In this document: piece by piece, positions 593 to 62,931 of the stretch
Layout: each line of letters opens with the position of its first letter
Numbering within the stretch: position 1 is the stretch's first letter
Virus record (IMG/VR): IMGVR_UViG_3300017782_000013
Coordinates: 1 to 62,931 of that record
Length of the DNA: 62,931 nt
From: a virus
Direction: 5' to 3' (one strand)
Position numbers and translations under genes: made by a program
Notes under the pieces: generated by a model
Seen by the model: the letters and a program-made list of their open reading frames with translations, nothing else
The model's database searches: none
Told to the model about the DNA's origin: nothing

Positions 593-780
593 TCTATCTT
601 CCAAATCCTTACTCCATATATATTGTCGTATACAACACTCTTTATTCTAATTTTAATATCCTCTTGCTTTGCTAATTTTCTTATCTCTTTTGTTATAGAG
701 TCTGGTTCTAAAGTGGGGACAAAAAAACTCTCCCCACTCTTCATAGCTTTAAACGGATATTTCCAACTAGGTTCTTTCAT
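589..780 (-). CDS. Small conserved-looking phage protein (63 aa)
   Basis: This is the last gene of the leftward arm. It starts with ATG preceded by an AGAGATAGAAG purine run and overlaps the 3' end of the primase-helicase gene by 14 bases, so it is probably translationally coupled. The N-terminus (YPFKAMKSGESFFVP) resembles short phage proteins often found beside replication genes. No catalytic motif is visible and the function is unknown. It ends at TAG 589-591, overlapping the stop of the plus-strand gene; there is no hairpin terminator between the convergent genes. Confidence 0.7.
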   Translation of the reverse strand: MKEPSWKYPFKAMKSGESFFVPTLEPDSITKEIRKLAKQEDIKIRIKSVVYDNIYGVRIWKID

Positions 781-3607
781 CTTCTATCTCTTTAAAAGCG
801 TTCTGGTCAAATATAATGCAATAAGGTCTGTACCCACTACCTTGTTCCCAACCTTTGTCTATAGTTTCTCTTGACCTTCTTTTAACAATTATTCCCTTCG
901 CTAACAAATCTTTTTCAAACTCTCTAAAGTTATATTTCACATCAGAACAATACTTCTCCATTTCGGATTTGATGACAAAAGTTCTTTTAGTATCTTTCTC
1001 CACTCTCATTACCAATTTATTTTTTGGAGTAGCGATAGGTACTTTTGTGTCATAACCGCTATCGTCTTTTCCGTTTTGTCTAAGAACTAAACTGTTGTTG
1101 GCGTTCAGAGCTAAGAAATCTCCAAGAATTTGCTCAGAAGTTTTAACCTTATTGTAGGCTTCTTTAGATATACTTCTTACCCCTTTTATAACAGCGTCAT
1201 ATATCCGTTCGTAATTCAAACCTACAATATCTATTTCAGAAGCTATCTCCATACCAGCCATACTTGAGGCTATGATAGCAACCCAATGCCTGTCTAATTT
1301 ATTAGTGTCGTTGATAACTCTATCCATCCATAGTTCCACTCTTCTTTTCAATTCCTTGTCAGTTTGGCAACATAACCATTGTGCATACATAATACCTGCA
1401 TGACCGTAATTCTCATGAATTGGATTTAAGTTTTGCCTACACCAATTGATTGTGAACCAATCAGGTTTCTTATCTATGTTTAATTGTAAAATTCTTACCA
1501 TCTCTCCTTCTGCCGAAGATTTATACCTAGATAACAATTCATATGCCGAAGTGTTTGAAGTAGTCAAAGCTAAAGTTGCCCATTTTGTGTTGTTCTTTCT
1601 TTCCTGATTTGAGCTTCTCATCATTCTAGCTTTGCCTTTACCCATTGGCATAGTGTATGCAAAATCAGATAAATCTTGCGGAGTCATGTTTGATATTTCA
1701 TCAACATATAAAGGTAGACTTCTAAGAACCCCAAGTCTTTCAAATTTTGCATTGATGGTGTGTTTAGCTAACATCATCTCTGATGGACAACCCCAAACAC
1801 TCAAAGCAAAATAACCGCTTAGTGTCTTACCACTTCCTGGTTTTCTACTATATAAATTAAGAATTGCCCCATTGACATTTGTATATTTTAATAAAGGTGT
1901 TCCAAAAGAAGCTCCCGCAAGAAATGTTTGATACTCTAAACCTTCTGCATCTAGTTTTTCAAAACATTCTCTCCATTTTTCAAATTGTCCACCAGTACGG
2001 CAAGTAGGAGCAACTTCTGTAATTGCCTTATTTGGAGCAACGTCATAACCACCGTCTTTTCTGTACTCTTTATAACCTAAAACAAAACCTTCCAAGTCAT
2101 TAGTCCACCCCATGTTTGCATGAGATGTGTCTGCTTTTTGTTGAGATTGTAGGTGTTTTACCCATTTTGTTACATATTGCATAAGTCTCTCCATTAAATG
2201 TTTATACGGCATGACGCCGCTACTTCTTACTACTTCCCCAAATTTTTCGCTAGACCCAAGACATTTCATAGGAATAGGAAAATCTTTTACGCCATCATGT
2301 TCAAAATGAACTCTTGCTATTACGCTGTCGCCATCTATCGGGTCTGTAATTCTTTTCACAATATAGAAATCGTTTTCGTAAATTTCTACTGGGTCTTCTT
2401 GAACCATTTGCCCTGACTTCTTATCGAACACAGGCGGCGGACTATATAACACACCACCATTTGCTCCCCTACTAAAAGGCATTAAATCATCAGGGTACTC
2501 GTGCTCTGTCTCAGAGGCAATGGTTTTTAGTACTTTCTTTTTCTCTTGTATTATATCTTTCGAGAGATTCTGTACCTGAGTATTCTCCTTGGTTATCCGA
2601 CCCAAGTGAAGAGGGGTCTTGACTTTCCCCCGATTTGGGCACTTCAAACAAATGTTTGAATCATGAGATATTTCTTCAAACGTAGCACAAGTATGAGGTT
2701 TTTGTATTCTCCTAGCTTTTAGTTCTGTTTTTTCATGGTCGTACTCAGGATGTAATCTGGACATTTCATGTATTGCGTTTTCCTCTACGCAAAGATTTGC
2801 AATTGACAAACCCGCAAACCAAACTCTTTCTCCAATTTTCTTTTGTTCCGTTACTATCCATTTTAGTTGACCGCATCCTTTACCTTGCATTGTCTTTTCA
2901 GCTATACGCCTCCAACTATATTCAAAGTTATAATTATCTGAATCAAATGGTTTATCAATAGAAGAATGTGCCAACGCTGTTTTTTCTTTTGAAATATCTC
3001 TTTGATAAGCGGTAAACACTTTTTCTCTGAGTTGCTCCCAACTAACAACTTCTCCAATTGCTTCTATATCGCAAAGTCTTTTTCTTTTAAAGTTGCGTGT
3101 AAATGGCAGTCTGAGAAGTCGTGTCGGGTCGCTAGGTACAGCTAAATCTATTTTGAAATTATGATGTTTGCATAACGTCTTAAATTTTTTAGCTACTTCT
3201 AACCAATCTTCTTTAGGTATATTTGTATCAGTAGCCCAGTAACAATGAAAACCACCACCTGATTGAATGATTGTAGGTTGGTCTAAATTTAACTCCTGTG
3301 AAAATCTTATAAGGTCTTGTATTGCTTCTTTATTGCTTGTGTATTCTCTACCATCACAATCAATATCTAAAAACAAACTTTTTAAGTGCGTACTGTTTTC
3401 TGCGGTGCGTCTACCATCTTTAAACACACTTTGTGAAAAATAAGAATTACTACCATTTATGTTTTGTTTATTAGCCCATACAAGTAACTCAGATAAATCT
3501 TTACTAAACTTATGTGCTACTTGCCCACTTTTATCTATCGAAGCTAAACAGTATTCTCCAAGCTCCGAAGAAGGTAAGACCTTCTCTAAAAATTCTTTTT
3601 GCTCCAT
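767..3607 (-). CDS. Primase-polymerase (AEP) / P-loop helicase fusion
   Basis: A 946-residue protein that probably primes and unwinds phage DNA at the fork. The N-terminal third has archaeo-eukaryotic primase signatures: FLDID at about 79-83 (acidic metal-binding pair), SGGGFHCYW at about 116-124 and a KIDLAVPSDPTRLLRLP segment near 155-168. A Cys cluster near residues 307-323 (CATFEE..., CLKC) may bind zinc. The C-terminal half has Walker A PGSGKT at about 590-595 and a Walker B-like LPLYVDE, as in DUF927-type helicase domains. A TTG 12 bases upstream (3619) is an alternative start, but ATG at 3607 is preferred; neither has a clear Shine-Dalgarno sequence. Two terminator-like hairpins lie just upstream, so expression may need read-through or a promoter hidden there. 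Confidence 0.88.
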   Translation of the reverse strand: MEQKEFLEKVLPSSELGEYCLASIDKSGQVAHKFSKDLSELLVWANKQNINGSNSYFSQSVFKDGRRTAENSTHLKSLFLDIDCDGREYTSNKEAIQDLIRFSQELNLDQPTIIQSGGGFHCYWATDTNIPKEDWLEVAKKFKTLCKHHNFKIDLAVPSDPTRLLRLPFTRNFKRKRLCDIEAIGEVVSWEQLREKVFTAYQRDISKEKTALAHSSIDKPFDSDNYNFEYSWRRIAEKTMQGKGCGQLKWIVTEQKKIGERVWFAGLSIANLCVEENAIHEMSRLHPEYDHEKTELKARRIQKPHTCATFEEISHDSNICLKCPNRGKVKTPLHLGRITKENTQVQNLSKDIIQEKKKVLKTIASETEHEYPDDLMPFSRGANGGVLYSPPPVFDKKSGQMVQEDPVEIYENDFYIVKRITDPIDGDSVIARVHFEHDGVKDFPIPMKCLGSSEKFGEVVRSSGVMPYKHLMERLMQYVTKWVKHLQSQQKADTSHANMGWTNDLEGFVLGYKEYRKDGGYDVAPNKAITEVAPTCRTGGQFEKWRECFEKLDAEGLEYQTFLAGASFGTPLLKYTNVNGAILNLYSRKPGSGKTLSGYFALSVWGCPSEMMLAKHTINAKFERLGVLRSLPLYVDEISNMTPQDLSDFAYTMPMGKGKARMMRSSNQERKNNTKWATLALTTSNTSAYELLSRYKSSAEGEMVRILQLNIDKKPDWFTINWCRQNLNPIHENYGHAGIMYAQWLCCQTDKELKRRVELWMDRVINDTNKLDRHWVAIIASSMAGMEIASEIDIVGLNYERIYDAVIKGVRSISKEAYNKVKTSEQILGDFLALNANNSLVLRQNGKDDSGYDTKVPIATPKNKLVMRVEKDTKRTFVIKSEMEKYCSDVKYNFREFEKDLLAKGIIVKRRSRETIDKGWEQGSGYRPYCIIFDQNAFKEIEDERT

Positions 3608-3616
3608 TATTTTATC

Positions 3617-3644
3617 CAAAAAAATAGGGCGGACTAGCCGCCCT
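3617..3644 (-). terminator. Rho-independent terminator (minus strand)
   Basis: Perfect 7-bp stem AGGGCGG (3626-3632) / CCGCCCT (3638-3644) with a 5-base loop. On the minus strand it is followed by a run of T (plus-strand A run about 3617-3624). It lies immediately before the primase-helicase start, so it could also act as an attenuator. Confidence 0.75.
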
Positions 3645-3682: not shown

Positions 3683-4000
3683 TTATATATTAAGAGAGCG
3701 AAAATAAGCAACCATTTCCTTTTTTGTTCCCAACGGCAACTTCCCTTTTTCCATATCGTCAAGAATAATCTCTGTAAAAGCAACTACTCTGTCGAGTCTT
3801 TTTTCATTTATATTTTTACCGTTGAACCAATTGAAAATTGTCATTCTGCTAACTTTAAAATACTTTGCTAGTAAACCTGTATTTAATCTTGCATCAATAC
3901 AAGCTGCAGCGAATTGCAAAGAATCGGTATCTTGAGCAGAATCTCTTAATCTCTCAATAGTCCTAGTACCATACGCTCTAGTTCTAGGTTCTTTTTGCAT
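3683..4000 (-). CDS. Small helix-turn-helix DNA-binding protein (105 aa)
   Basis: The middle of the protein (about residues 38-62, LLAKYFKVSRMTIFNWFNGK) fits a Cro/C1-type or XRE-like helix-turn-helix with a recognition helix around SRMTIFNWF. It is a probable transcriptional regulator acting on phage promoters. GGAG lies 7 bases before the ATG. It follows the putative ssDNA-binding gene by 3 bases and is closed by a double terminator. No inducer or dimerisation domain is visible. It could equally be a replication accessory protein. Confidence 0.7.
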   Translation of the reverse strand: MQKEPRTRAYGTRTIERLRDSAQDTDSLQFAAACIDARLNTGLLAKYFKVSRMTIFNWFNGKNINEKRLDRVVAFTEIILDDMEKGKLPLGTKKEMVAYFRSLNI

Positions 4001-18019: not shown

Positions 18020-19357
18020 TTATTGCTCGTCAGGTATGTAAGGTACTAGACGACCTTGGGTTGGTACAAAATTTGTTTCTCCATCTGGAGTAACAACCAA
18101 CCATAAAACAGGTTTGCTAGGTTGCCACTCGATTGGGTGCAAATATCCATCTGTGAAAATGCAACACGCTTCCCAGTTGATATTGTTTTCTTCCAAATAT
18201 GTCGGAATACATTGTGCATTTGTACCACCACCACCAATAGGTTTAATCATCTCTGCGAACCTATGGTAATCTTTTGGGAGATATATTTCGTCAGACACAA
18301 TACTTGTGTCCCAAAACAATATCCGTACACACTCTGGTCGCATACGTTCCAATATCTCTTGAACTTGCTCAACAAAAACTTTCAATTCTTTATGTATTGA
18401 ACCAGAACAATCGAACGCAATCACAATCTCTCCAACTTTGTCGGTATAGTCTGTCGGATAAATTGGGTTCACATCATCATACCCTCCAACATCTAAGATA
18501 CTTCTTGGGTTATATATTGCGTAAGTCTGGTCGTCTGCTCCTTGTTGCGAAACAAGAACAATGTCCTCGAACAAAGGTTGCCAACGAACTTTGATTGCCA
18601 TTTCTCCATCAATCATTTTGTTTGAGTTTGGCGAACCCTCTTGAATCAAATGTTTTGCGTGAGCAATCATGTTGTCCAAATGCTCGACCATTTCTTGCAT
18701 GGCTTTTGCTTTTTCTTGGACAGATTGATTTGACTTGTCGCCATCTGAATCTCCATCATCAAAACCACCAAACTCCATCTCGTCAGTTGGTTCTCCGTCT
18801 GGACTCCACTTGCCACCCTCTTTTTCTTTTTCTTGTTTCTGTTTTTGTAGGTGCTTGAAAATCTTGAGTGGACTCCAACCACGATAAGACTCGTCCCAAA
18901 GACAACCCTCGATAAATTCAACACACGTTCTGTCTGGGTCTAGTTGGTCTATCCAATCGTTGACTTGATAGTCTGCTGAAATTCCTGTTAGTTGAGCATC
19001 AATCTTGAACAATCTTTTACAGATGAAAGTATGCTTGAGTAGGATATGACAACATTCGTGGCACATGACAAAATTCACTTCTTTTTGAGTGAGCGTGTCC
19101 ATAAACTCTTTACAGAAAACCATATCCCACCCGTTTGTATACGCTGTAAATGAATATGAACCATCTGGACTCGGAGCGGAAACAATCGAAATTTCTCCGC
19201 ACATCATAAATGGTAACAATGCTCTGAGAGTCGGGTGTTTACCAATCATAATTTTTGCTCTCATCAATGGTCGATAATCTTGTATCGGCATTTTGTGTTG
19301 CGATACCAGTTGCGTGGTCTTGCCGAATGTACTTGTTGTTGATGTTGTACCTGCCAT
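18020..19357 (-). CDS. VWA protein with metallopeptidase-like N-terminus (DUF2201/COG3864 type)
   Basis: A 445-residue protein. The N-terminal domain has the zinc-peptidase motif HECCH (H100, E101, H104) within VNFVMCHECCHILLKHTF. A Lys/Glu/Asp-rich linker follows (about 170-215). The C-terminal VWA domain has the MIDAS sequence DCSGS at 316-320 and a later FTDGY. This layout matches DUF2201-type proteins, which pair with MoxR-type AAA+ ATPases; the ATPase gene lies directly upstream. VWA/MoxR pairs act as metal-insertion or protein-remodelling chaperones (CobS/CobT, NorQ/NorD, RavA/ViaA). ATG 19357 is chosen for AGGAG 7 bases upstream. The intact HExxH suggests possible proteolysis, which is untested. 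Confidence 0.88.
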   Translation of the reverse strand: MAGTTSTTSTFGKTTQLVSQHKMPIQDYRPLMRAKIMIGKHPTLRALLPFMMCGEISIVSAPSPDGSYSFTAYTNGWDMVFCKEFMDTLTQKEVNFVMCHECCHILLKHTFICKRLFKIDAQLTGISADYQVNDWIDQLDPDRTCVEFIEGCLWDESYRGWSPLKIFKHLQKQKQEKEKEGGKWSPDGEPTDEMEFGGFDDGDSDGDKSNQSVQEKAKAMQEMVEHLDNMIAHAKHLIQEGSPNSNKMIDGEMAIKVRWQPLFEDIVLVSQQGADDQTYAIYNPRSILDVGGYDDVNPIYPTDYTDKVGEIVIAFDCSGSIHKELKVFVEQVQEILERMRPECVRILFWDTSIVSDEIYLPKDYHRFAEMIKPIGGGGTNAQCIPTYLEENNINWEACCIFTDGYLHPIEWQPSKPVLWLVVTPDGETNFVPTQGRLVPYIPDEQ

Positions 19358-19364
19358 TTTGAAT

Positions 19365-19383
19365 CTCCTTGTAATATATAATT
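19365..19383 (-). promoter_or_regulatory. AAATTATATATTACAAGGAG leader element
   Basis: Third minus-strand copy of the AT-rich decamer plus GGAG, here before the VWA gene, with four bases (CAA-G) between the decamer and GGAG. Confidence 0.5.
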
Positions 19384-19426
19384 TGTTAGTGTCTGTGGTG
19401 CGGTCGTATGCTAGACAAAATAGACA

Positions 19427-19444
19427 GACGGCTGTTTTGCCGTC
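19427..19444. repeat. Dispersed hairpin repeat B
   Basis: GACGGCTGTTTTGCCGTC, a perfect 6-bp stem with a 6-base loop, lies between the AAA+ stop (19459) and the VWA start. On the minus strand it is followed by TGTCTATTTTG, so it may be a weak terminator or an mRNA-stabilising hairpin. The core GACGGCTGTTTTGCCGT is identical to repeat C at 21868. Confidence 0.7.
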
Positions 19445-19458
19445 CGCCAATATAACGA

Positions 19459-20562
19459 CTACCCAAATATTAAATCTGAATTTTCGACAACCCACTTATC
19501 GAAACCGACCAATGATTTTGTCATTTTCTTGTCAATGTGCATAAGTGAAAAACAGAAAGTCGAGATGATTTGCTCGTCCGAAAACCGCTTCATGTACTTC
19601 CAAAACTTTTGAGCGTTCTCGATTGATTCGTCTTTTGCGAATTGGACACACGCCAAACACTGCATATACTGAACCATTGGTGCTGTTGGAATTGGTGCTT
19701 TGTCTGGGTCTGCGATAATGTCCGTTGGTGCGGTAACGTCTTTTGCCACTTGCATGAAAACAAGTAAATCATTTGCAAATGCTTCGCCAGATAATCCACC
19801 CAACATAGCCCTCAAGTTGTTGTCTTTTTTATCGACAGGTTGCCATTCATCAACGTAAGCATCTCTATTTACATAAACCCTAAATGAACGCTCCAATGAA
19901 CGTGGAGTACAAAACTGTCTGTTTGGGTGTTTGGGGTTCATAATGTAAGGGTTGTTTTCTTGACCCGATTGACGATAGTCTGCCAACACTTCTGGTTTGT
20001 GCATCAAAAACGCAAGGCAACTTGAGTCCCAATTGTTTTGTGAACCATACACAATCAACTCTTTTGGAGTAACATTCTTCAAATGTAGAACTGACAAGCG
20101 ATTGCCAAAGTGTGCTTCGATAAAGTCTCCGAGTCCATCTTGAGTACGATTAGATGTACCAAAAACAATTGAACCATCTGGTAATTGTTTACCCATAAGG
20201 TTGTGTTCCTGAATCAAACGAGTGAATATAAGTTTGACCGACCTAGCACATTTCAAAACTTCGTCAAGCATAATGATAAGTGGTTTGTTCTCGTCCAACT
20301 TGTAACGCTCGTTCAACCATGTCTCCAGAACACCCTTTGAAACATTTGGTACAGTCAAACCATTGTCTTGAACTGTCTCGGTAGGACAGTCAATATATAA
20401 ATAGTTATATTTGTCGCCATACTTGTCCATCAATTGCTTGAGAGCGGTTGACTTACCCTGACCCGCACCACCAACAATAAGTTTGGATATTTCTGGGTCT
20501 GCCATAATCATGGTTGGTAACGAATTGATTGATACTTCGGTTGCTTTGATTTCTCTACTCAT
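19459..20562 (-). CDS. MoxR-type AAA+ ATPase
   Basis: A 367-residue ATPase. Walker A GGAGQGKST (31-39), Walker B LIIMLDE (95-101) and a sensor-1-like Asn in VFGTSNRT (about 133-140) are present. A C-terminal lid domain follows (TPRSLERSF). This fits the CobS/CbbQ/NorQ branch of MoxR ATPases, which work with a VWA partner; the VWA gene is next in the operon. ATG 20562 is chosen because GAGGAG lies 7 bases upstream; a TTG at 20577 would swallow that site. It probably forms a hexameric remodelling machine in the cytoplasm. The substrate is unknown. Confidence 0.9.
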   Translation of the reverse strand: MSREIKATEVSINSLPTMIMADPEISKLIVGGAGQGKSTALKQLMDKYGDKYNYLYIDCPTETVQDNGLTVPNVSKGVLETWLNERYKLDENKPLIIMLDEVLKCARSVKLIFTRLIQEHNLMGKQLPDGSIVFGTSNRTQDGLGDFIEAHFGNRLSVLHLKNVTPKELIVYGSQNNWDSSCLAFLMHKPEVLADYRQSGQENNPYIMNPKHPNRQFCTPRSLERSFRVYVNRDAYVDEWQPVDKKDNNLRAMLGGLSGEAFANDLLVFMQVAKDVTAPTDIIADPDKAPIPTAPMVQYMQCLACVQFAKDESIENAQKFWKYMKRFSDEQIISTFCFSLMHIDKKMTKSLVGFDKWVVENSDLIFG

Positions 20563-20588
20563 TTTATTGCTCCTCAAATATGTATTTA

Positions 20589-21488
20589 TTAAATGTTGAA
20601 TTTCTTTAAGATTGCTTCCATGTCAGATTTGACTTTCAAGCGTGTGTCGTCATTGTCTCGCAAGGTTTCAAAGTCGTTTACCTTGTCCCGCTGAATTGGA
20701 CTCATGGCTTTCTCGAAATCTGTAATTAGAGAACTAATCTTTGTGTTGTTGCCAATGTTGAAAGCATTGAGAATGTTGACCAATTCCAGATGGTTGAGCA
20801 TAGACGATTCTTGAAAACGATTTGGTTTAACCACTTCGTTGCCATGCTTGTCCTTGATTGCTTGACTCGAAAACGCTTTGATAATATGTCTTACAGAATC
20901 AAGAATCCTGTCTTGCGTTTGCTCCTCGACTTTCTCCAAATTGCGGATATGGTCTTGTTTTGCTTTTTCCTTGATAAAGTCAACGTGTTCATCAATCGCA
21001 TCAAGTCGTTCATCTTGCATATCGGACAGAGCATTGAGATTGTAAGTAAAAGAAAATTTTGCCCTCGCTTGTTTGAATGTCGGGTACATACTCGCATCAA
21101 AACCATTGGGGTCGTTGTCTTTTGCTCTTTGAATCATTTGACGATAAGTCTTTTCGTCTGGCAAAAACTGTTCAACAAGGTCGTTGAAATCAGACTCAAA
21201 CTTGTCCACATACTTCTTGAAATTCTCGAAATATGTAACGTCAAGAGACACCAACTTCAAACTGCCATGCCAATCAAGAGTCCGTCTTTTTAGGTTGTTG
21301 ATGAAATCTTGCCTTTTCAAACGAATAGCCTTGTAAACTGGGTCGTCTGCGGATAGGTCGGTTGTCGCATTGTGAACGGCAACACCCTTGACAGATTCGT
21401 TGAGTTTATCGGTATTGACTCTATGTTTGCGAGTCAACCCCAAAAGGGTACATTCATACCCGAACACAATGTAGTTGTTTTGTAACAT
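20589..21488 (-). CDS. DUF3150-like protein (299 aa)
   Basis: A hydrophilic, mostly helical protein with a central segment (SMYPTFKQARAKFSFTYNLN) like the conserved block of DUF3150 proteins. DUF3150 genes are typically neighbours of CobS/NorQ-like AAA+ and VWA genes, and that order is seen here. The start codon overlaps the stop of the 80-aa ORF by one base. There is no catalytic motif; it may be a substrate adaptor of the ATPase. Family assignment is from recognition of pattern and context, not from a search. Confidence 0.6.
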   Translation of the reverse strand: MLQNNYIVFGYECTLLGLTRKHRVNTDKLNESVKGVAVHNATTDLSADDPVYKAIRLKRQDFINNLKRRTLDWHGSLKLVSLDVTYFENFKKYVDKFESDFNDLVEQFLPDEKTYRQMIQRAKDNDPNGFDASMYPTFKQARAKFSFTYNLNALSDMQDERLDAIDEHVDFIKEKAKQDHIRNLEKVEEQTQDRILDSVRHIIKAFSSQAIKDKHGNEVVKPNRFQESSMLNHLELVNILNAFNIGNNTKISSLITDFEKAMSPIQRDKVNDFETLRDNDDTRLKVKSDMEAILKKFNI

Positions 21489-21730
21489 TACTTGTCCTCC
21501 ATTTTTGTAGTCATATGATTTATATGGTCTAGTAACGGAGTTACTTGTCCCTTTGTTACGGCTTCAACGAATTTATCCACGTTAAAGTTTGGGTTGTCCT
21601 CCGAAAAGAAAAACGACAATCCGTTCATTGAAATCGTAGGGTTGTATCTATCTTCTGGGTCGTTAGTATTTCGTAACAACTCAGCTATAGCCATGTAATG
21701 TTTCTTAGTGAATAATGGTTTCTTACTCAT
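21488..21730 (-). CDS. Hypothetical protein, first gene of the MoxR/VWA operon (80 aa)
   Basis: AAGGAG lies 9-10 bases before the ATG, and a -10/-35 pair (21766-21794) lies upstream. The product (MSKKPLFTKKHYMAIAELLRN...) is a small soluble protein with the look of a phage accessory protein. No family recognised. It overlaps the DUF3150-like gene by one base. Confidence 0.65.
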   Translation of the reverse strand: MSKKPLFTKKHYMAIAELLRNTNDPEDRYNPTISMNGLSFFFSEDNPNFNVDKFVEAVTKGQVTPLLDHINHMTTKMEDK

Positions 21731-21765
21731 AGGTCTGAACTCCTTTTTCGTTAATGTAAAGTCTT

Positions 21766-21794
21766 ATTGTAAAGTATGTAAATCAAAAAAACAA
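21766..21794 (-). promoter_or_regulatory. Sigma70-like promoter for the MoxR/VWA operon
   Basis: Minus strand: -35 TTGTTT (21794-21789), 17-base spacer, -10 TACAAT (21771-21766), about 35 bases before the ATG at 21730. A second TTTACA/TTACAT pair overlaps it slightly downstream. Confidence 0.5.
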
Positions 21795-21827
21795 GCGAAA
21801 TGTTTTGTGCTGGTAAAACTGAACTAC

Positions 21828-21851
21828 CCAAATACATAATTGGATATTTGG
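21828..21851. promoter_or_regulatory. Inverted repeat upstream of the promoter (operator candidate)
   Basis: CCAAATA (21828-21834) and TATTTGG (21845-21851) are perfect 7-base arms separated by 10 bases, one helical-turn geometry suitable for a dimeric regulator. It lies 34 bases upstream of the -35 box. Confidence 0.4.
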
Positions 21852-21867
21852 TAAGTAAAATAGGCTG

Positions 21868-21883
21868 ACGGCTGTTTTGCCGT
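21868..21883. repeat. Dispersed hairpin repeat C
   Basis: ACGGCTGTTTTGCCGT followed by ACGGCTAT. It shares CTGACGGC-N6-GCCGTACGGCTAT with repeat D at 22375, and its 17-base core is identical to repeat B. Confidence 0.7.
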
Positions 21884-22026
21884 ACGGCTATATAAGAACC
21901 AAACACACACGCAATATTCCGCTTCGTTATCGTAGACAACCGACAACAAAGCCACAATACCATGCGAGTTGTTTTTATACAACAGATAAGGGAAACTATC
22001 GTAAAATATAAGATAAGGTTTTTTTG

Positions 22027-22321
22027 TGTCTTAACTGTCCTACAACGATTGATGATTGGGACACTCCGAAACCAGTTGTTTATATAGTCGTGTCCCAACT
22101 GTCCTAAGTGTCTTAGTCTAAATATGTAATATAGATATTTATATATACGGAGATTTTGTTTTTGACACACTCGCCAATCTGCCCTCGACCGCCAAAGATT
22201 CTCAAACCGCTCGCACATATACCCTTTTTTGTTGGGACACTTAGGACAGTTGGGACAGTTGGCTTGTACTAGCCGTTTGGGGCGACTTGAGATGACTCAA
22301 TGTTTATATATTTTGGGACAG
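22027..22321. repeat. Array of about ten 9-base iterons (TTRGGACAS)
   Basis: Units occur on both strands: two on the minus strand at 22027-22044, one on the plus at 22056-22064, three in tandem on the minus at 22090-22116, three in tandem on the plus at 22232-22258 (TTGGGACAC, TTAGGACAG, TTGGGACAG) and one at 22313-22321. The inner two triplets form a perfect 22-base inverted repeat (22091-22112 and 22236-22257) around a 123-base AT-rich centre. Confidence 0.75.
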
Positions 22322-22374
22322 GCACATTAGCGGCACCTACGCCCGTATGATAAACTTCCGAATTATATAATCTG

Positions 22375-22390
22375 ACGGCAATCTTGCCGT
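22375..22390. repeat. Dispersed hairpin repeat D
   Basis: ACGGCAATCTTGCCGT, 7-bp stem, 2-base loop, followed by ACGGCTAT as in repeat C. Confidence 0.7.
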
Positions 22391-22465
22391 ACGGCTATTT
22401 TATCAGGACAATCCTCACTAATTTAGTAATCGACCCGCACCCACGCATACGCACATGGCGACAAG

Positions 22466-22480
22466 TAACTGGCTTCAATA
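22466..22480. repeat. 15-base direct repeat, copy 1
   Basis: TAACTGGCTTCAATA, identical to 24117-24131. Both copies lie in the only two long non-coding regions that flank the leader operon. Confidence 0.6.
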
Positions 22481-22535
22481 TCCAAATTTCTAAATACCTG
22501 CATGACGAGCGACACCAGTTCCCAAAAATTAAAGA

Positions 22536-22571
22536 CAAAAAAAAAGGGTAGAGCCGTTAAGCCCTACCCTT
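22536..22571 (-). terminator. Strong terminator ending the leader operon
   Basis: Stem AAGGGTAG (22544-22551) / CTACCCTT (22564-22571) with two further inner pairs. On the minus strand it is followed by a run of nine T. It starts 6 bases after the stop of the 69-aa membrane protein. Confidence 0.85.
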
Positions 22572-22577
22572 CACTAC

Positions 22578-33444: not shown

Positions 33445-33876
33445 ATGGCATCAACGACATTTTCAGGCCCAATTAAAGCTGGAACAGTTAAAGAAGGGTC
33501 TTCAGTAAACGTAGGTTCAGTAGTAATGGCTCAGTCAGCAGTAATTGATATTATTGGTGCAACCAATAGTGCTACTGTAGCTACAGTACCCGCTAATTCA
33601 CAAATTATAGACGTTATTTTAAACGTATCTACAGTTAGTAATGATGGCGGTGCAGCGACTGTTAAAATCGGTACAGGTACAGATGATGATGAGTTTCTTG
33701 CGGCTACTAACGTAAAGGCTGTAGGGACAACTCGTGGAACTATAGGTGCTGAAGGAACTGACGTAGGTTCTTCTGATTTATCTGTTAGTTATACTTTTAC
33801 TGGGGCAAACGGTAACGGCACAACAGGTGCGGCTACAGTAACAGTCTTATATATTCAGAACAACAACCTTTCATAA
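33445..33876 (+). CDS. Structural (decoration-like) beta protein (143 aa)
   Basis: Ala/Gly/Thr/Val-rich with few charges (VPANSQIIDVILNVSTVSND; TVKIGTGTDDDEF), a beta-sandwich look. Good RBS (CGGAGAT). It lies after the major capsid gene. Probably a head decoration or fibre protein; family not recognised. Confidence 0.6.
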   Translation: MASTTFSGPIKAGTVKEGSSVNVGSVVMAQSAVIDIIGATNSATVATVPANSQIIDVILNVSTVSNDGGAATVKIGTGTDDDEFLAATNVKAVGTTRGTIGAEGTDVGSSDLSVSYTFTGANGNGTTGAATVTVLYIQNNNLS

Positions 33877-57012: not shown

Positions 57013-60000
57013 ATGTCGTATAATTTAAAAGGGTATGAGTTTGAAGATGATGTCCCTGAAGAGGAGGCAATACAGTACCTAAAATCAATGGGTATATCGG
57101 CAGGGCAATCTCAAGAGGGGGCTGATACCAGTCTTTTTAGAGATATTGGTGGCTCTTTAGTAGGTGGTCTTGGTTCTTTGGTTGAACTTGGCGGTGCTGG
57201 TTTAGGTTTAGCAACAGGTAGCGACCCCGAAAATATACTTACAAAAGCTGGTGGTGGTATAAGAGATTTTGCGAGAGATACTATACAATCAGAGGGGTTT
57301 CGCCAACAAAGAGATGAAGTAGAACAAAGATTAGCAGAGCTGGGTGATAAAGAATTAGGTAAACAAATTAGTGGTACTTTAGGGGAATTGTTTACTAACC
57401 CTTACTATTTACTTAATTTGGGAGTCGAACAAGCTCCACAATTACTGGGTGGTGCAGGTGCAGGTCTAGCCGCTAGAGGACTTATAAGAAGTGCTGCTAA
57501 GAAAGAATTTAGAGATACGAAACAGATACCTTCTTTAACAAAAGAACAAAAACAAAAATATGACGAAATACTAAATACAAAGAAAAAGAAAGGCGACAAA
57601 GTATCCCCTGAGAAAAAAGCTGAAAATTATTTAAACAGAGTGACGCAAAAGTCTGGAGTCGGAAAATTTGATGCTGGTGATATAGGAAACGTAGCTGCAG
57701 CTCGTACAGGTATAGGAGCAGCAGGTGCTTTACAAGGTGCAGATGTAGCTAAAAACACTTACGATGAAATTATGGGGTTGCCACCTGAAACTCTTTCAGA
57801 ATATCCAGAATACTTAGAGTTAATAAATCAAGGTTTATCAGGAGAACAAGCACAAAAAGAAATAGCTACAAGACAAGCTAGAGATTCGTTTGTAAAAGCT
57901 GGTTTGTTATCTCTTGGTACAGCAAGTCTTTTACCTAACACTCTAGAGAAAGGTTTATTTAGAGGATTTGGCGACACAGGTAGACTTAAAGGTGCTGGAA
58001 AAGGTGCGTTTATGGAAGGTCTACAAGAGACAGCCGAGGAGGGTGGCGGTGCGTTAATTACAGGTTTTAATGTGCAAGATGTAGACCCAACTCGTGACCC
58101 ATATCAAGGTGTAGGTGTTGCAGGAACAATGGGCGGTACATTAGGTGGTTTCTTTGGTTTAGGTGCAGGTGCTATTAGAGGCCCACAAGTAGAACCTAAA
58201 AAACCAGAAGAAAAGAAACTTGAAGAACCAAAACAACTTGGATTTACGCAAAAAACGGCTGGAGAAAATCCAGGTGTATTAGTCGGTGGGGTAAATCCTT
58301 TATCTGTTGACGAGAGAAGAGAAATTGCAAATATTTTAAAAACACCGAAACTTATAAAAGAATACGCAGAAAAAAACAAACTTACTGAAGTACAAGCTAG
58401 ACAAGAGTTAAAAGAACAATTAAGCAAGGGGGTAACAAATGTTACAGCCGAAACGAAAACCAATAGTACTAAAGACGTGGGTAATGACGGACTTAGAACT
58501 AAGCCAAATGTGGATGTACCTACTGGAGGGGCGGAAACTACCACGGAAACTAAAGATGCTGGCAGAGGAAAATCAGGTAGTGTTACTGGAAATGTTGAAG
58601 GAGGAACTGGAGGAACTAAAGGAGTCAACAATACATTAAAAGGTAAAAAACCATTTGTACCATCACCAAGACAAGTATTATATCAAGCCTCAAGACAAAA
58701 AGTTCTTAGCCAAGCAGAACCAACAACTGACGTTGAACAAAACAATGATATAAATAATCAAGAAGCACTATTGGAAAATGATGAACGAGCAATAACTGAA
58801 GGCGACCCAACAGAAACTAAAGATAAAAAAGACACAGGTAAAAAAGGCAAAGGCAAAGGCACAGGCAAAGGCACAGGCAAAGGCAATATGATGCTTGCCA
58901 AAGGTACTCCAGTAATTACTGACCAAGGTATAGTTAATTCTACAAACGGTGCTACAAGCGTTGCTCCTGCGATATCAAAAATAGAAACTATAAGACAAAA
59001 GGCTTTAAGAGACACTAAAAATATTGCTGCTAAACAAAACCATAAAGCAGCACCTATAACAAAAAAAACTGACGCAGAGCAAGATGCTGAAGCAAAGTTA
59101 GAAGCGGAAAATTTAAAAAGAGAAAGATTAGCAAAACAATTTGACGATAGAATAGAGCAAAAAAGAAGAGCAGGAGATAGTAGCGAACCTGATGTGTTGT
59201 CGTCTTTTCAAAGTAGTTCTAAAAAAACATTTCAGTTTAAAAACGATGTACGAAATGAAGATGAAAATTTAAACGATATATTTGACAAAGCAAAAGGGAC
59301 AGAGGGGTTTCTTAACAAACTAACGAATTATATAAGAAACGAAGAAGGTAACGATAAACAAGCCGACACGCTTGTACAAATAAGACCTTTTTTAAAAGAC
59401 GTAACTATAGAAAGATTATCTGATAAAAGTCCAAAAGATGTTATTAAGTTTATGGCAGATAATAAAGCTCATGGAACAATAGTTTATAATTCTGAAACTG
59501 GAAAATCTAAAATATTTTTAAATTCTAATTCAGGGATGAACGCTACAACAATACTACACGAGTTAATTCACGCTGCTACTATAAAAAGAATTTCTGTTGC
59601 TCAAAGAATAAAAAAGAATAAAAAGTTAGAAAAATCTGTTGGTAAAAATAATACTTTACTAAAATCATATGAGGCTTTACAAACTACGCTGTCGGCTTTA
59701 AGAACTTACGTAAAAGACCAATTGATAGACCCTAAAACTGGTAGACCAACAGGTAAAATAAAAACTGATAAAAATTCTACACTTATAACTAAACTTATAG
59801 CAAAAGTACAAACTTCTGTTCAAAACAACGCAAAATTAAATGAACAAATAGAAGCGGTTAATGACGACATTAACTCAATTACAAAAAACGTTTCTGAAAG
59901 ACAACTACAAGAATTATTTGCGGGAGAAAAAACAAATAAAGACCTACAAAAAGAACTTGAACTTAATGAAGACCAAGTTAAGGAACTACAAAAATTACGA

Positions 60001-62931
60001 AAAGAAAAACAAAAATTAGAAGCACAATTAGAGTCAAACATTTTTAGAAATACTGCTTTTGAAAATACTCATGAGCTTGTAGCTTATGCTATGTCAGACC
60101 CTCTATTTCAATCTTTCTTAAAAAATAAACAAATAATGAGGACTGATTTAGGCCCAATATTAGACCCAAAAACTGGGGAAAGACTGACTCAAGAAACTAG
60201 AGACAACGCACCTCCTTTTTATGAATCTCAGCGAAAGCAATTAGAAAAAGAAGGTATGGTAAACATTAGTTTATTTAAAAAACTTTTTGACGCAATATTT
60301 AGTATGTTGGGTTTAAGGTATACTTCAAAACTTGTTACTAAAAGAAGATTAGGAGACGACCCTGGCGGTGTATTTTATAGTCAAGACGCAATGTCTATAA
60401 TTTCAAATCAGTTTGAAATTTTGTTAGCAATAGAAGATAGTAAATTAGATAAAGTTGTTAAAGATGCAGAAGTAGAAGTGCCAGGTGCAATGGCATTAAA
60501 CCAAATAACTTTAGCTCAAGCTATGGCGAGTACACCTATAAGAATGTTTGGTTCTGACGGTAATGTAGTTAATTTAGGTGGTAAACAAAATCACCCAGCA
60601 CAGACACCGTATGGTATTTCTAAATTATTTGATAGGTTTTATGGCGACCAAAAAGAATCAACTATAAATAAATTTATACAAAAATTTGTAAACGATAGAG
60701 TATATGCTAAAGCTAAAGAAGAAGAAATTACAAACAATGGTGACGCTAAATTTGAAAATGAATTAGGAGATAATGGTTATAACTTAGTCTTTACAGCTTT
60801 AACTAATATGAATGGATTAGCTGAAGGAGATTATTTAAAAGATGTAAAAGGTTTGTCAGATGAAGTAGAATCTATATTAGAAGAAATAGTTGACTTAAAA
60901 GGTAGCGATTCAGAAACAGCTATGTCGCACATTAACAATGTCATGACTGCTCTGCATGATAAAGAAAGACGAGTTGTGAATAAAATGCTTTATTCTAAAC
61001 TAACTGAGACTAATGAAAAAAGAAGAGCAGAAATAATGGCAGAAATATATGATGGCGATACAGAAATAAGTAATGAAAGAATTGACCAACTAAGAGCAGA
61101 GTTAGAACAAATAATACAAAACGACCCAGAAGCTCAAAAATATGATTTTGATAATGACAGATACCAAGTGTCGCATTTAAAACCTTCTCAAAGAGACCAA
61201 ATATTAGACTTATATGAAAAAGATACAGAAATAAAAGAACAAATAGATAACATACGAGATGCGATAAAAAAACTTAATGGTACAAAAGAAACAGATGGGG
61301 TGACAATAAGTTTAAATAAAGCAGGTAATTATTGGTCAAAGCCTGTTGATAGAATTAAAAGACTATACGGTTTTGACAACTATGTACCATTAAAAGGGCT
61401 ACCACAAAACGAAGATAAAACCGATATGTTTAATTTTAGCTCAAGAAAAATATCTGGAGAACTTCAAGATAGAGTAACAGCTATGGAAGGTAGAACATCT
61501 GAGTCCGATAATGTTTTAACTAGAAGTTTTGTTGACGCTTCACAAGCTACACTAAGAAAACACAAAAATCCTGTTACTCTTGCAGTTCATAATTTAGTAG
61601 CCCAAAAAAAAGTTGAAGGAACTATCGAAAGAATATCTTTTAAACAAAGAGCAACAACAAAAGATTTTGACAAGTTTAAAAATCCAGAATACATATTTCA
61701 CTACGCAGAAAACGGAGATGTTTTATTAGTAAAAATAAAAGATAAAAATTTTAGAGAATCTGTTAGAAGAACATATAGAGAGACAAACCCATTACTAGAT
61801 ACTTTAAATGGCATGACCGCAAAGATGGGGCAGTTTCACACAAGGTATAATCCAAACTTCCCATTTTTAAACTATATAAGAGACTTACTAACAAACGCAT
61901 TTATTTTTGGAGCAGAGTACGGCCCTGGTGCCGCATTTAATATTATTAAAAAAATGACAATGGAGTCTGGCACTCACTTACATAAAACATTTACGTTTGC
62001 TCGTTTATATAATGGTGGAAAGGTTGAAGAAGCCTATAAGTATTTAGAAGATAGTGGCGACCCGTTTATGGTGAACTTAGCAGAATATATAAGAGGGGGT
62101 GGAAGAATTGCGTATCTTCAAGGTTTAACAACCGATAATAAAACTTCTCAATTTGAAGAGGCTTTGCCAACAGGTGGTGCTCTTGGAGAAACTGGAGTAA
62201 AACTATCTAAAGCAGGGCGAAAGTTAAGTAACGGTTTTGATATATGGATGGACACTTTTGAATTAACAGCTAGGTCGATTGCTTATTCAGAAGCTAAAAA
62301 ACAAATTCAAGCAGAAAACATTGAACAAGGTAGACCACCAATACCTCCAAAGATATTACAAGAAAGAGCCACAGCTTACGCAAAAAATTTAGCTAACTTT
62401 GAACAAACAGGAGAGTATGGAAAAGCCATAGGTGCATTTGCCATGTTCTTTAGACCATCTGCTACAGGTGCTTTACGTTCAGCCGAAGCAATTATGAAAG
62501 GCAAACATGGTGGTAAAATGGCATTGGTTCTATTAGGTGCTGGAGCATCTACTTATTTAATGTCATTAGCTGCAGCGGGAGAAGATGAACAAGGTAGAAA
62601 TACAGTTGCTAATGACGATATGACGAGGTGGACAAGATATTGGAGAATACATCTTGGAGACGACAAAGTTTTACAAATACCGTATGGATTCGGTAATGGC
62701 GGACTTCTAGCAGCAGGGGCACAATTAGCGGCTCTTCTATCAGGTAATCAAACAAATGCAAGTACAATATTTGAAAACGTAGCAAGGATTGCACAGGACT
62801 CGTATTTCCCAATACCTATTTCACAAATAAGTCCGTTTGAAAATCCTAGTGCTTTTTTAGCTGATACTATTACGCCTTCAATTGGTAAGCCTCTTGTTCA
62901 GTTTGGTATGAACGTAAGTGGGCTGGGGTAC
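57013..62931 (+). CDS. Giant polyvalent virion protein with zinc-peptidase motif, 5' part (1973 of about 2167 aa)
   Basis: Starts at ATG directly after the previous TAA and runs off the right end; continued at base 1. N-terminal quarter: hydrophobic Gly/Ala segments (about 45-70, 130-150, 370-395) and a Lys/Gly linker (KGKGKGTGKGTGKGN). Middle: zinc-peptidase motif HELIH at 849-853 (TILHELIHAATIK) and a downstream HELVAYAMSDPLFQ near 1020, a likely third-ligand segment. C-terminal third: a domain with FAMFFRPSATGALRSAEAIM near 1815-1835 and hydrophobic helices, like LPD38 of polyvalent phage proteins. Polyvalent proteins are packaged and injected to act early on the host. Assignment of LPD38 is by pattern only. 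Confidence 0.85.
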   Translation, partial: MSYNLKGYEFEDDVPEEEAIQYLKSMGISAGQSQEGADTSLFRDIGGSLVGGLGSLVELGGAGLGLATGSDPENILTKAGGGIRDFARDTIQSEGFRQQRDEVEQRLAELGDKELGKQISGTLGELFTNPYYLLNLGVEQAPQLLGGAGAGLAARGLIRSAAKKEFRDTKQIPSLTKEQKQKYDEILNTKKKKGDKVSPEKKAENYLNRVTQKSGVGKFDAGDIGNVAAARTGIGAAGALQGADVAKNTYDEIMGLPPETLSEYPEYLELINQGLSGEQAQKEIATRQARDSFVKAGLLSLGTASLLPNTLEKGLFRGFGDTGRLKGAGKGAFMEGLQETAEEGGGALITGFNVQDVDPTRDPYQGVGVAGTMGGTLGGFFGLGAGAIRGPQVEPKKPEEKKLEEPKQLGFTQKTAGENPGVLVGGVNPLSVDERREIANILKTPKLIKEYAEKNKLTEVQARQELKEQLSKGVTNVTAETKTNSTKDVGNDGLRTKPNVDVPTGGAETTTETKDAGRGKSGSVTGNVEGGTGGTKGVNNTLKGKKPFVPSPRQVLYQASRQKVLSQAEPTTDVEQNNDINNQEALLENDERAITEGDPTETKDKKDTGKKGKGKGTGKGTGKGNMMLAKGTPVITDQGIVNSTNGATSVAPAISKIETIRQKALRDTKNIAAKQNHKAAPITKKTDAEQDAEAKLEAENLKRERLAKQFDDRIEQKRRAGDSSEPDVLSSFQSSSKKTFQFKNDVRNEDENLNDIFDKAKGTEGFLNKLTNYIRNEEGNDKQADTLVQIRPFLKDVTIERLSDKSPKDVIKFMADNKAHGTIVYNSETGKSKIFLNSNSGMNATTILHELIHAATIKRISVAQRIKKNKKLEKSVGKNNTLLKSYEALQTTLSALRTYVKDQLIDPKTGRPTGKIKTDKNSTLITKLIAKVQTSVQNNAKLNEQIEAVNDDINSITKNVSERQLQELFAGEKTNKDLQKELELNEDQVKELQKLRKEKQKLEAQLESNIFRNTAFENTHELVAYAMSDPLFQSFLKNKQIMRTDLGPILDPKTGERLTQETRDNAPPFYESQRKQLEKEGMVNISLFKKLFDAIFSMLGLRYTSKLVTKRRLGDDPGGVFYSQDAMSIISNQFEILLAIEDSKLDKVVKDAEVEVPGAMALNQITLAQAMASTPIRMFGSDGNVVNLGGKQNHPAQTPYGISKLFDRFYGDQKESTINKFIQKFVNDRVYAKAKEEEITNNGDAKFENELGDNGYNLVFTALTNMNGLAEGDYLKDVKGLSDEVESILEEIVDLKGSDSETAMSHINNVMTALHDKERRVVNKMLYSKLTETNEKRRAEIMAEIYDGDTEISNERIDQLRAELEQIIQNDPEAQKYDFDNDRYQVSHLKPSQRDQILDLYEKDTEIKEQIDNIRDAIKKLNGTKETDGVTISLNKAGNYWSKPVDRIKRLYGFDNYVPLKGLPQNEDKTDMFNFSSRKISGELQDRVTAMEGRTSESDNVLTRSFVDASQATLRKHKNPVTLAVHNLVAQKKVEGTIERISFKQRATTKDFDKFKNPEYIFHYAENGDVLLVKIKDKNFRESVRRTYRETNPLLDTLNGMTAKMGQFHTRYNPNFPFLNYIRDLLTNAFIFGAEYGPGAAFNIIKKMTMESGTHLHKTFTFARLYNGGKVEEAYKYLEDSGDPFMVNLAEYIRGGGRIAYLQGLTTDNKTSQFEEALPTGGALGETGVKLSKAGRKLSNGFDIWMDTFELTARSIAYSEAKKQIQAENIEQGRPPIPPKILQERATAYAKNLANFEQTGEYGKAIGAFAMFFRPSATGALRSAEAIMKGKHGGKMALVLLGAGASTYLMSLAAAGEDEQGRNTVANDDMTRWTRYWRIHLGDDKVLQIPYGFGNGGLLAAGAQLAALLSGNQTNASTIFENVARIAQDSYFPIPISQISPFENPSAFLADTITPSIGKPLVQFGMNVSGLGY

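Follow-up and report, generated by a model that had tools for sequence, protein, structure and literature searches.

An inverted iteron array in a marine tailed phage: a probable replication origin and its candidate primase-helicase initiator

The locus

The window, as the term is used here, is the whole 62,931-nucleotide stretch of the IMG/VR virus record IMGVR_UViG_3300017782_000013. A gap of 847 bp between coding genes (21731-22577) contains an array of 9-bp units of the word TTRGGACAS, upstream of an operon that encodes a MoxR ATPase; a gene at 767-3619 encodes a primase fused to a helicase. The array is probably a replication origin of the phage, bound by the phage's own primase-helicase, and this is the best explanation of the observations as a whole.

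The first-pass annotation, made from the sequence alone, described about ten TTRGGACAS iterons and a perfect 22-base inverted repeat, and both are present. Ten units lie in the intergenic stretch (22026-22321). Seven are exact, beginning at 22056, 22232, 22241, 22250 and 22313 on the plus strand and at 22090 and 22099 on the minus strand. Two units at 22026 and 22035 (both minus) are in register with one mismatch each, and a unit with two mismatches at 22108 (minus), read from the sequence, is the third member of the left triplet. The parts of the array are as follows.

22026-22043, minus strand: outer left iteron pair, TTAAGACAC and GTAGGACAG, one mismatch each
22056-22064, plus strand: single iteron TTGGGACAC, in the orientation opposite to the outer left pair
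22090-22116, minus strand: left triplet with a 9-bp period; TTGGGACAC and TTAGGACAG exact, CTAAGACAC degenerate
22091-22112: left arm of the perfect 22-base inverted repeat (right arm 22236-22257)
22117-22231: spacer between the inverted triplets, a candidate melting region
22232-22258, plus strand: right triplet with a 9-bp period, three exact units
22313-22321, plus strand: outer right single iteron

The units are strongly clustered. Beyond the array, only two exact copies occur in 62.9 kb (18306 and 47155), and the densest 300 bp holds seven exact units, compared to a maximum of two in 300 first-order Markov simulations. Two other parts of the initial description stand in a narrower form. 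Triplets on opposite strands do surround an AT-rich center, but the enrichment is local: the most AT-rich 40 bp of the 21.7-22.6 kb region (82.5%) lies between them at approximately 22120-22160, while the spacer as a whole is average. Similarly, the gap is the largest non-coding region within 0.8-26 kb, the part checked.

The proposed initiator

Three sets of neighboring genes are relevant to the interpretation of the array.

767-3619, minus strand: proposed initiator of 950 residues, an AEP primase fused to a DUF927 SaPI Rep/Cch-type helicase with an HTH_56-like C-terminal domain
3683-4000, minus strand: small helix-turn-helix (HTH) protein directly upstream of the helicase gene, with a weak match to HTH_3 (E 0.031)
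18020-21730, minus strand: operon downstream of the array, consisting of an 80-residue open reading frame (ORF), a 299-residue ORF, the MoxR ATPase and a DUF2201 metallopeptidase/von Willebrand factor A (VWA) protein

The protein encoded at 767-3619 is homologous to the Rep proteins of Staphylococcus aureus pathogenicity islands (SaPIs) and to the Cch helicases of staphylococcal cassette chromosome mec (SCCmec) elements, and this homology includes the C-terminal domain. Its helicase core is DUF927 (PF06048, E 1.8e-22), and there is no match to D5_N or Pox_D5. A single-sequence phmmer search with the protein recovered SaPIbov1 Rep (8tch, E 4.6e-9) and SCCmec Cch (5dgk, E 1e-8), and a profile built from it and four homologues matches 8tch at E 1.1e-32, in an alignment that covers the C-terminal domain as far as residue 560 of 580. 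The HTH_56 family ("Cch helix turn helix domain") matches the last 191 residues at E 0.0054, below the cut-off. A model of those residues, of moderate confidence (predicted local distance difference test score, pLDDT, 66.5), has as its top Foldseek hits in the PDB the same two proteins, Cch 5dgk and SaPIbov1 Rep 8tch (probabilities 1.00 and 0.99, E approximately 0.007-0.009); a model of the helicase half (residues 430-950, pLDDT 49.6) was too poor for use. The N-terminal AEP primase assignment is based on PHROG matches to primase families, along with short alignments to the primase regions of other array-linked proteins. The first-pass annotation had seen no obvious origin-binding initiator in this genome. 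That was wrong, since the phmmer, profile and Foldseek results all identify the product of the primase gene as an initiator helicase of the SaPI Rep/Cch type that has the matching C-terminal domain.

Conservation and word replacement in relatives

One further record (L050) is a copy of this stretch at 99.9% identity. A second, L043, is a diverged syntenic relative, with protein identities of 75% for MoxR, 66% for the VWA protein and 82% for a methyltransferase. Its intergenic region keeps the same arrangement and adds an extra triplet. Bases within the units are 83% identical between L043 and the window, whereas other aligned intergenic bases are 64% identical (Fisher p 2e-4). The counterpart of the outer left pair is GTGTCCTAAGTGTCCTAT, with one exact unit and one with a single mismatch; the third unit of the left triplet is CTAGGACAC; and the spacer stretches TCTAAATATGTAATA and TATTTATAT are kept. 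The outer right single iteron is not kept at that place.

Three more distant relatives have the same replication module, each with an inverted array built from another word, and in two of them (G001 and G021) the array occupies the equivalent position. In G001 (helicase identity 32%), GCGGAACA occurs 11 times in inverted sets upstream of MoxR. In G021, which has a terminase large subunit of 74% identity and a helicase of about 30%, inverted pairs of a TTGAACT type lie between the terminase and MoxR. Pseudomonas phage Rollin (helicase 26%) has AGTATGCAA-type units with a triplet at a 9-bp period and inverted geometry, and eight of the nine copies of TATGCAA in its genome belong to the array. 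No MoxR is detectable in Rollin, though the array and the replication module are present. An array in RHph_TM27A is weak and is not relied on here, and searches with the MoxR sequence alone or with a 315-residue neighbor produced no new relatives.

Because the distant relatives keep an array with different words, and because Rollin has an array without MoxR, the array, judged from these sequences, follows the replication module rather than MoxR, and the iteron word changes as the module diverges. A fixed place combined with a changing word is expected of an origin that co-evolves with its initiator, and is difficult to reconcile with an operator that serves the MoxR operon. It could still be that the array is a cooperative operator of that leftward operon and not an origin: it lies about 300 bp upstream, a position compatible with regulation of the adjacent promoter, and the relatives' arrays are upstream of the module too. 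We nevertheless regard this model as unlikely, given the comparable array in Rollin, the 16 other records from the motif search in which no MoxR homologue was detected, and the frequent location of arrays elsewhere at the 3′ ends of helicase genes, not a place in which one would expect an operator acting on a promoter.

The MoxR ATPase, the DUF2201 metallopeptidase/VWA protein and a protein of about 299 residues are found beside the array in the window, L043, G001 and G021. The MoxR/DUF2201-VWA module occupies 18020-21488 in the window, 5060-8365 in L393 and 35.7-39.1 kb in G021; other array-bearing phages lack it. MoxR was rejected as a general iteron binder, as 16 of 18 records searched and Rollin have no detectable homologue, and the two MoxR-positive records are the GCGGAACA relatives. 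The suggestion in the first-pass annotation that a protein of this module binds the array is accordingly unlikely.

The small HTH protein had also been put forward as the binder. In such a model, the array is an origin, but the HTH protein reads the iterons and then recruits the primase-helicase. G001 and G021 retain its gene immediately before that of the helicase, and the protein remains a minority candidate as binder or regulator. However, an hmmsearch of the other TTRGGACAS loci examined yielded no convincing homologue, and helicases of the SaPI Rep/Cch class possess their own origin-binding domain (PMC7581432), making this route to the origin improbable. In Rollin, a different protein of the same size takes the place of the HTH protein.

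TTRGGACAS in other genomes

Scans for TTRGGACAS dimers and triplets recovered many further arrays. Counting the window, 98 loci passed a loose two-strand cluster filter; this set was not de-replicated, and its weakest members may be chance occurrences or coding repeats. Of the 47 triplet matches to TTRGGACAS in the full viral scan, 28 formed inverted clusters. Two permuted words, which are a thin control for the recurrence of TTRGGACAS, gave 1 of 34 and 4 of 120, and the one-base neighbor TRGAACAS gave 9 of 61. Since matches to permuted words do exist, and coding repeats can yield them, triplets alone are not evidence. Additionally, the loci were retrieved by the word itself, and part of the recurrence is thus selection from a very large collection.

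The phages and bacterial genomes with inverted TTRGGACAS triplets span 39-71% GC, and the sources include Nostoc, Desulfovibrio, Elstera, Methylobacterium and Bacteroidales. The triplets adjoin the 3′ end of replicative helicase genes, including those for DUF927 homologues in L112, L156 and L091. An array faces the 3′ end of 53 ORFs, in which the most frequent domains were DUF5906 (15), VapE-like (9), AAA_25 (7), Prim-Pol (5) and D5_N (4), alongside DUF927 (2) and DUF3987 (1); one protein may match several of these domains. The spacer exceeds its own locus in AT content in 51 of 56 arrays, by a mean of 12 points.

It is tempting to view TTRGGACAS as a privileged origin word, used across D5, DUF5906/VapE, DUF927, DUF3987 and AAA_25 initiator helicases in phages and prophages of several bacterial phyla and read by a swapped domain, by structurally convergent domains or by a common factor, but this is a speculative idea that we think doubtful. 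Pairwise hhalign revealed no common C-terminal DNA-binding domain across the helicase classes (best pair D5 and DUF5906, 14.6% probability). The word is present in none of 14 named phages with related helicases, several of which have their own iterons downstream of the helicase (GGGAACAG, GTTGGTTC, GGGAACTA and TCTGACGG), and literature searches returned coincidental matches only. The phage-plasmid pSTEC648_2 (L472) has 14 GACACAG-type units at positions 33523-33702 of its record, inside a DUF927 helicase gene and nearly all on one strand; it was rejected as an example of the same layout on account of this intragenic position and the strong bias to one strand.

At 14 loci, the array is within approximately 1 kb of a gene of a small-terminase family, and the distance to the terminase genes is about 2-3 kb in both the window and G021. 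The array might then be a pac-like site at which the small terminase subunit binds and packaging begins. However, the neighbors of many other arrays are helicases instead of terminases, and the inverted two-set geometry fits known origins of phage-inducible chromosomal islands (PICIs); we consider a packaging site very unlikely. Inverted TTRGGACAS arrays lie about 87 bp from a small-terminase-family gene in L022, L024, L026, L054 and L057, and up to about 1 kb from one in the L197/L220 group, in neither case beside a helicase.

Comparison with known origins

In SaPIs, the C-terminal domain of Rep recognizes iterons that lie immediately 3′ of rep, with the protein apparently acting as two hexamers, and the C-terminal domain of Cch2 binds direct repeats (PMC7581432). 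PICI origins always have two iteron sets that flank an AT-rich region (PMC6092414). The resemblance of the window to systems such as SaPIbov1 and EcCICFT073 lies in the DUF927-type initiator helicase (that of SaPIbov1) with its C-terminal origin-binding domain (PMC6092414, PMC7581432), which has a counterpart encoded on the same element here, probably cognate to the iterons, and in the inverted triplets with an AT peak between them, the AT content of the whole spacer being merely average. The self-loading SaPI Rep/Cch helicases have their DUF927 core and HTH_56-like C-terminal domain matched as well, with HTH_56 itself sub-threshold. By domain homology, in sequence and in the predicted model, this C-terminal domain may read iterons as that of SaPI Rep does.

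The differences are that the window is a 63-kb tailed phage record, that its helicase is fused to an AEP primase, and that the array is not immediately 3′ of rep, the helicase gene (767-3619) and the array (22026-22321) being 18 kb apart. For this last reason, the array is not classed as a SaPI/PICI origin, even though it probably works like one. The SaPI-like element PT1028 has an iteron word, identified de novo as GGGAACTA, that differs from TTRGGACAS. SCCmec Cch (5dgk) belongs to the same helicase family, but the Cch2 site, just downstream of the Cch2 gene, has only three 5-nt iterons and no inverted triplets.

Other replicons provide looser parallels. The alpha protein of satellite phage P4 is a primase-helicase initiator with a C-terminal winged-helix origin-binding domain, and the P4 iteron word, GGTGAACAG, ends in -ACAG, as does the word in the window. 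The P4 helicase is of the SF3/D5 type, unlike the DUF927 core found here, and acts with separate ori and crr regions. Iteron plasmid origins of the RK2 and pSC101 type share tandem iterons and an AT-rich opening region; their direct repeats are about 17-22 bp, and their Rep proteins lack helicase activity. No Rep protein of this type was found among the genes annotated in the window.

A model for initiation

We infer that the C-terminal winged-helix/HTH_56-like domain of the 767-3619 protein binds the 9-bp units, with a single monomer on each. Two helicase rings would be loaded at the inverted triplets, facing opposite ways on either side of the AT-rich part of the spacer (approximately 22120-22160), which may melt after ring loading. 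Bidirectional synthesis of DNA would then be started by the fused AEP primase, close to the point where the two gene arms diverge. Sites outside the triplets, single or paired, probably assist cooperative loading.

The proposal in the first-pass annotation of an iteron-type origin gains support from the architecture, the conservation in L043, the replacement of the word in place and the occurrence of the same word beside replicative helicases elsewhere. Several observations weigh against it. Known SaPI/PICI origins are just 3′ of rep, whereas 18 kb separate this array from the helicase gene; the position of the array also suits regulation of the MoxR operon. The predicted models of the 767-3619 protein are weak (pLDDT 49.6 and 66.5), and the AT fraction of the whole spacer (22117-22231) equals that of the window (0.63 in both). 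GC skew, suggested as a check, is uninformative and gives no independent support, as the switch near 24 kb follows gene orientation. Across the whole window, TTRGGACAS copies with one mismatch allowed are about as numerous as expected (41 found, 43 expected), and the signal is therefore the clustering of the units.

Flanking elements and record ends

A GC-rich hairpin element (GACGGC-N6-GCCGT-ACGGC or similar) is present in three copies (19417-19455, 21856-21895 and 22363-22402), two of which flank the array. In L043, a different palindrome, of the GGTCGGCCGGTCGGCCGA type, is found at both corresponding flanks. The flanking pair thus seems to change together, as if a phage-specific protein reads both. 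A terminator-like hairpin, AAGGGTAGAGC / GCCCTACCCTT, at 22536-22571 beside an A tract is kept in L043. Plus-strand ORFs run off both ends of the record (1-592 and 57013-62931), which have no exact terminal repeat. Joining the two ends does not give a continuous reading frame, and circularity is thus unproven.

Implications

If the array is indeed an origin, the data suggest that a similar design is present in tailed phages of many lineages. Relatives in which the place of the array is fixed and the words change would constitute a natural experiment, mapping helicase residues to the bases that they read. The inverted iteron array may also be a simple sequence signature for locating origins in uncultured phages.
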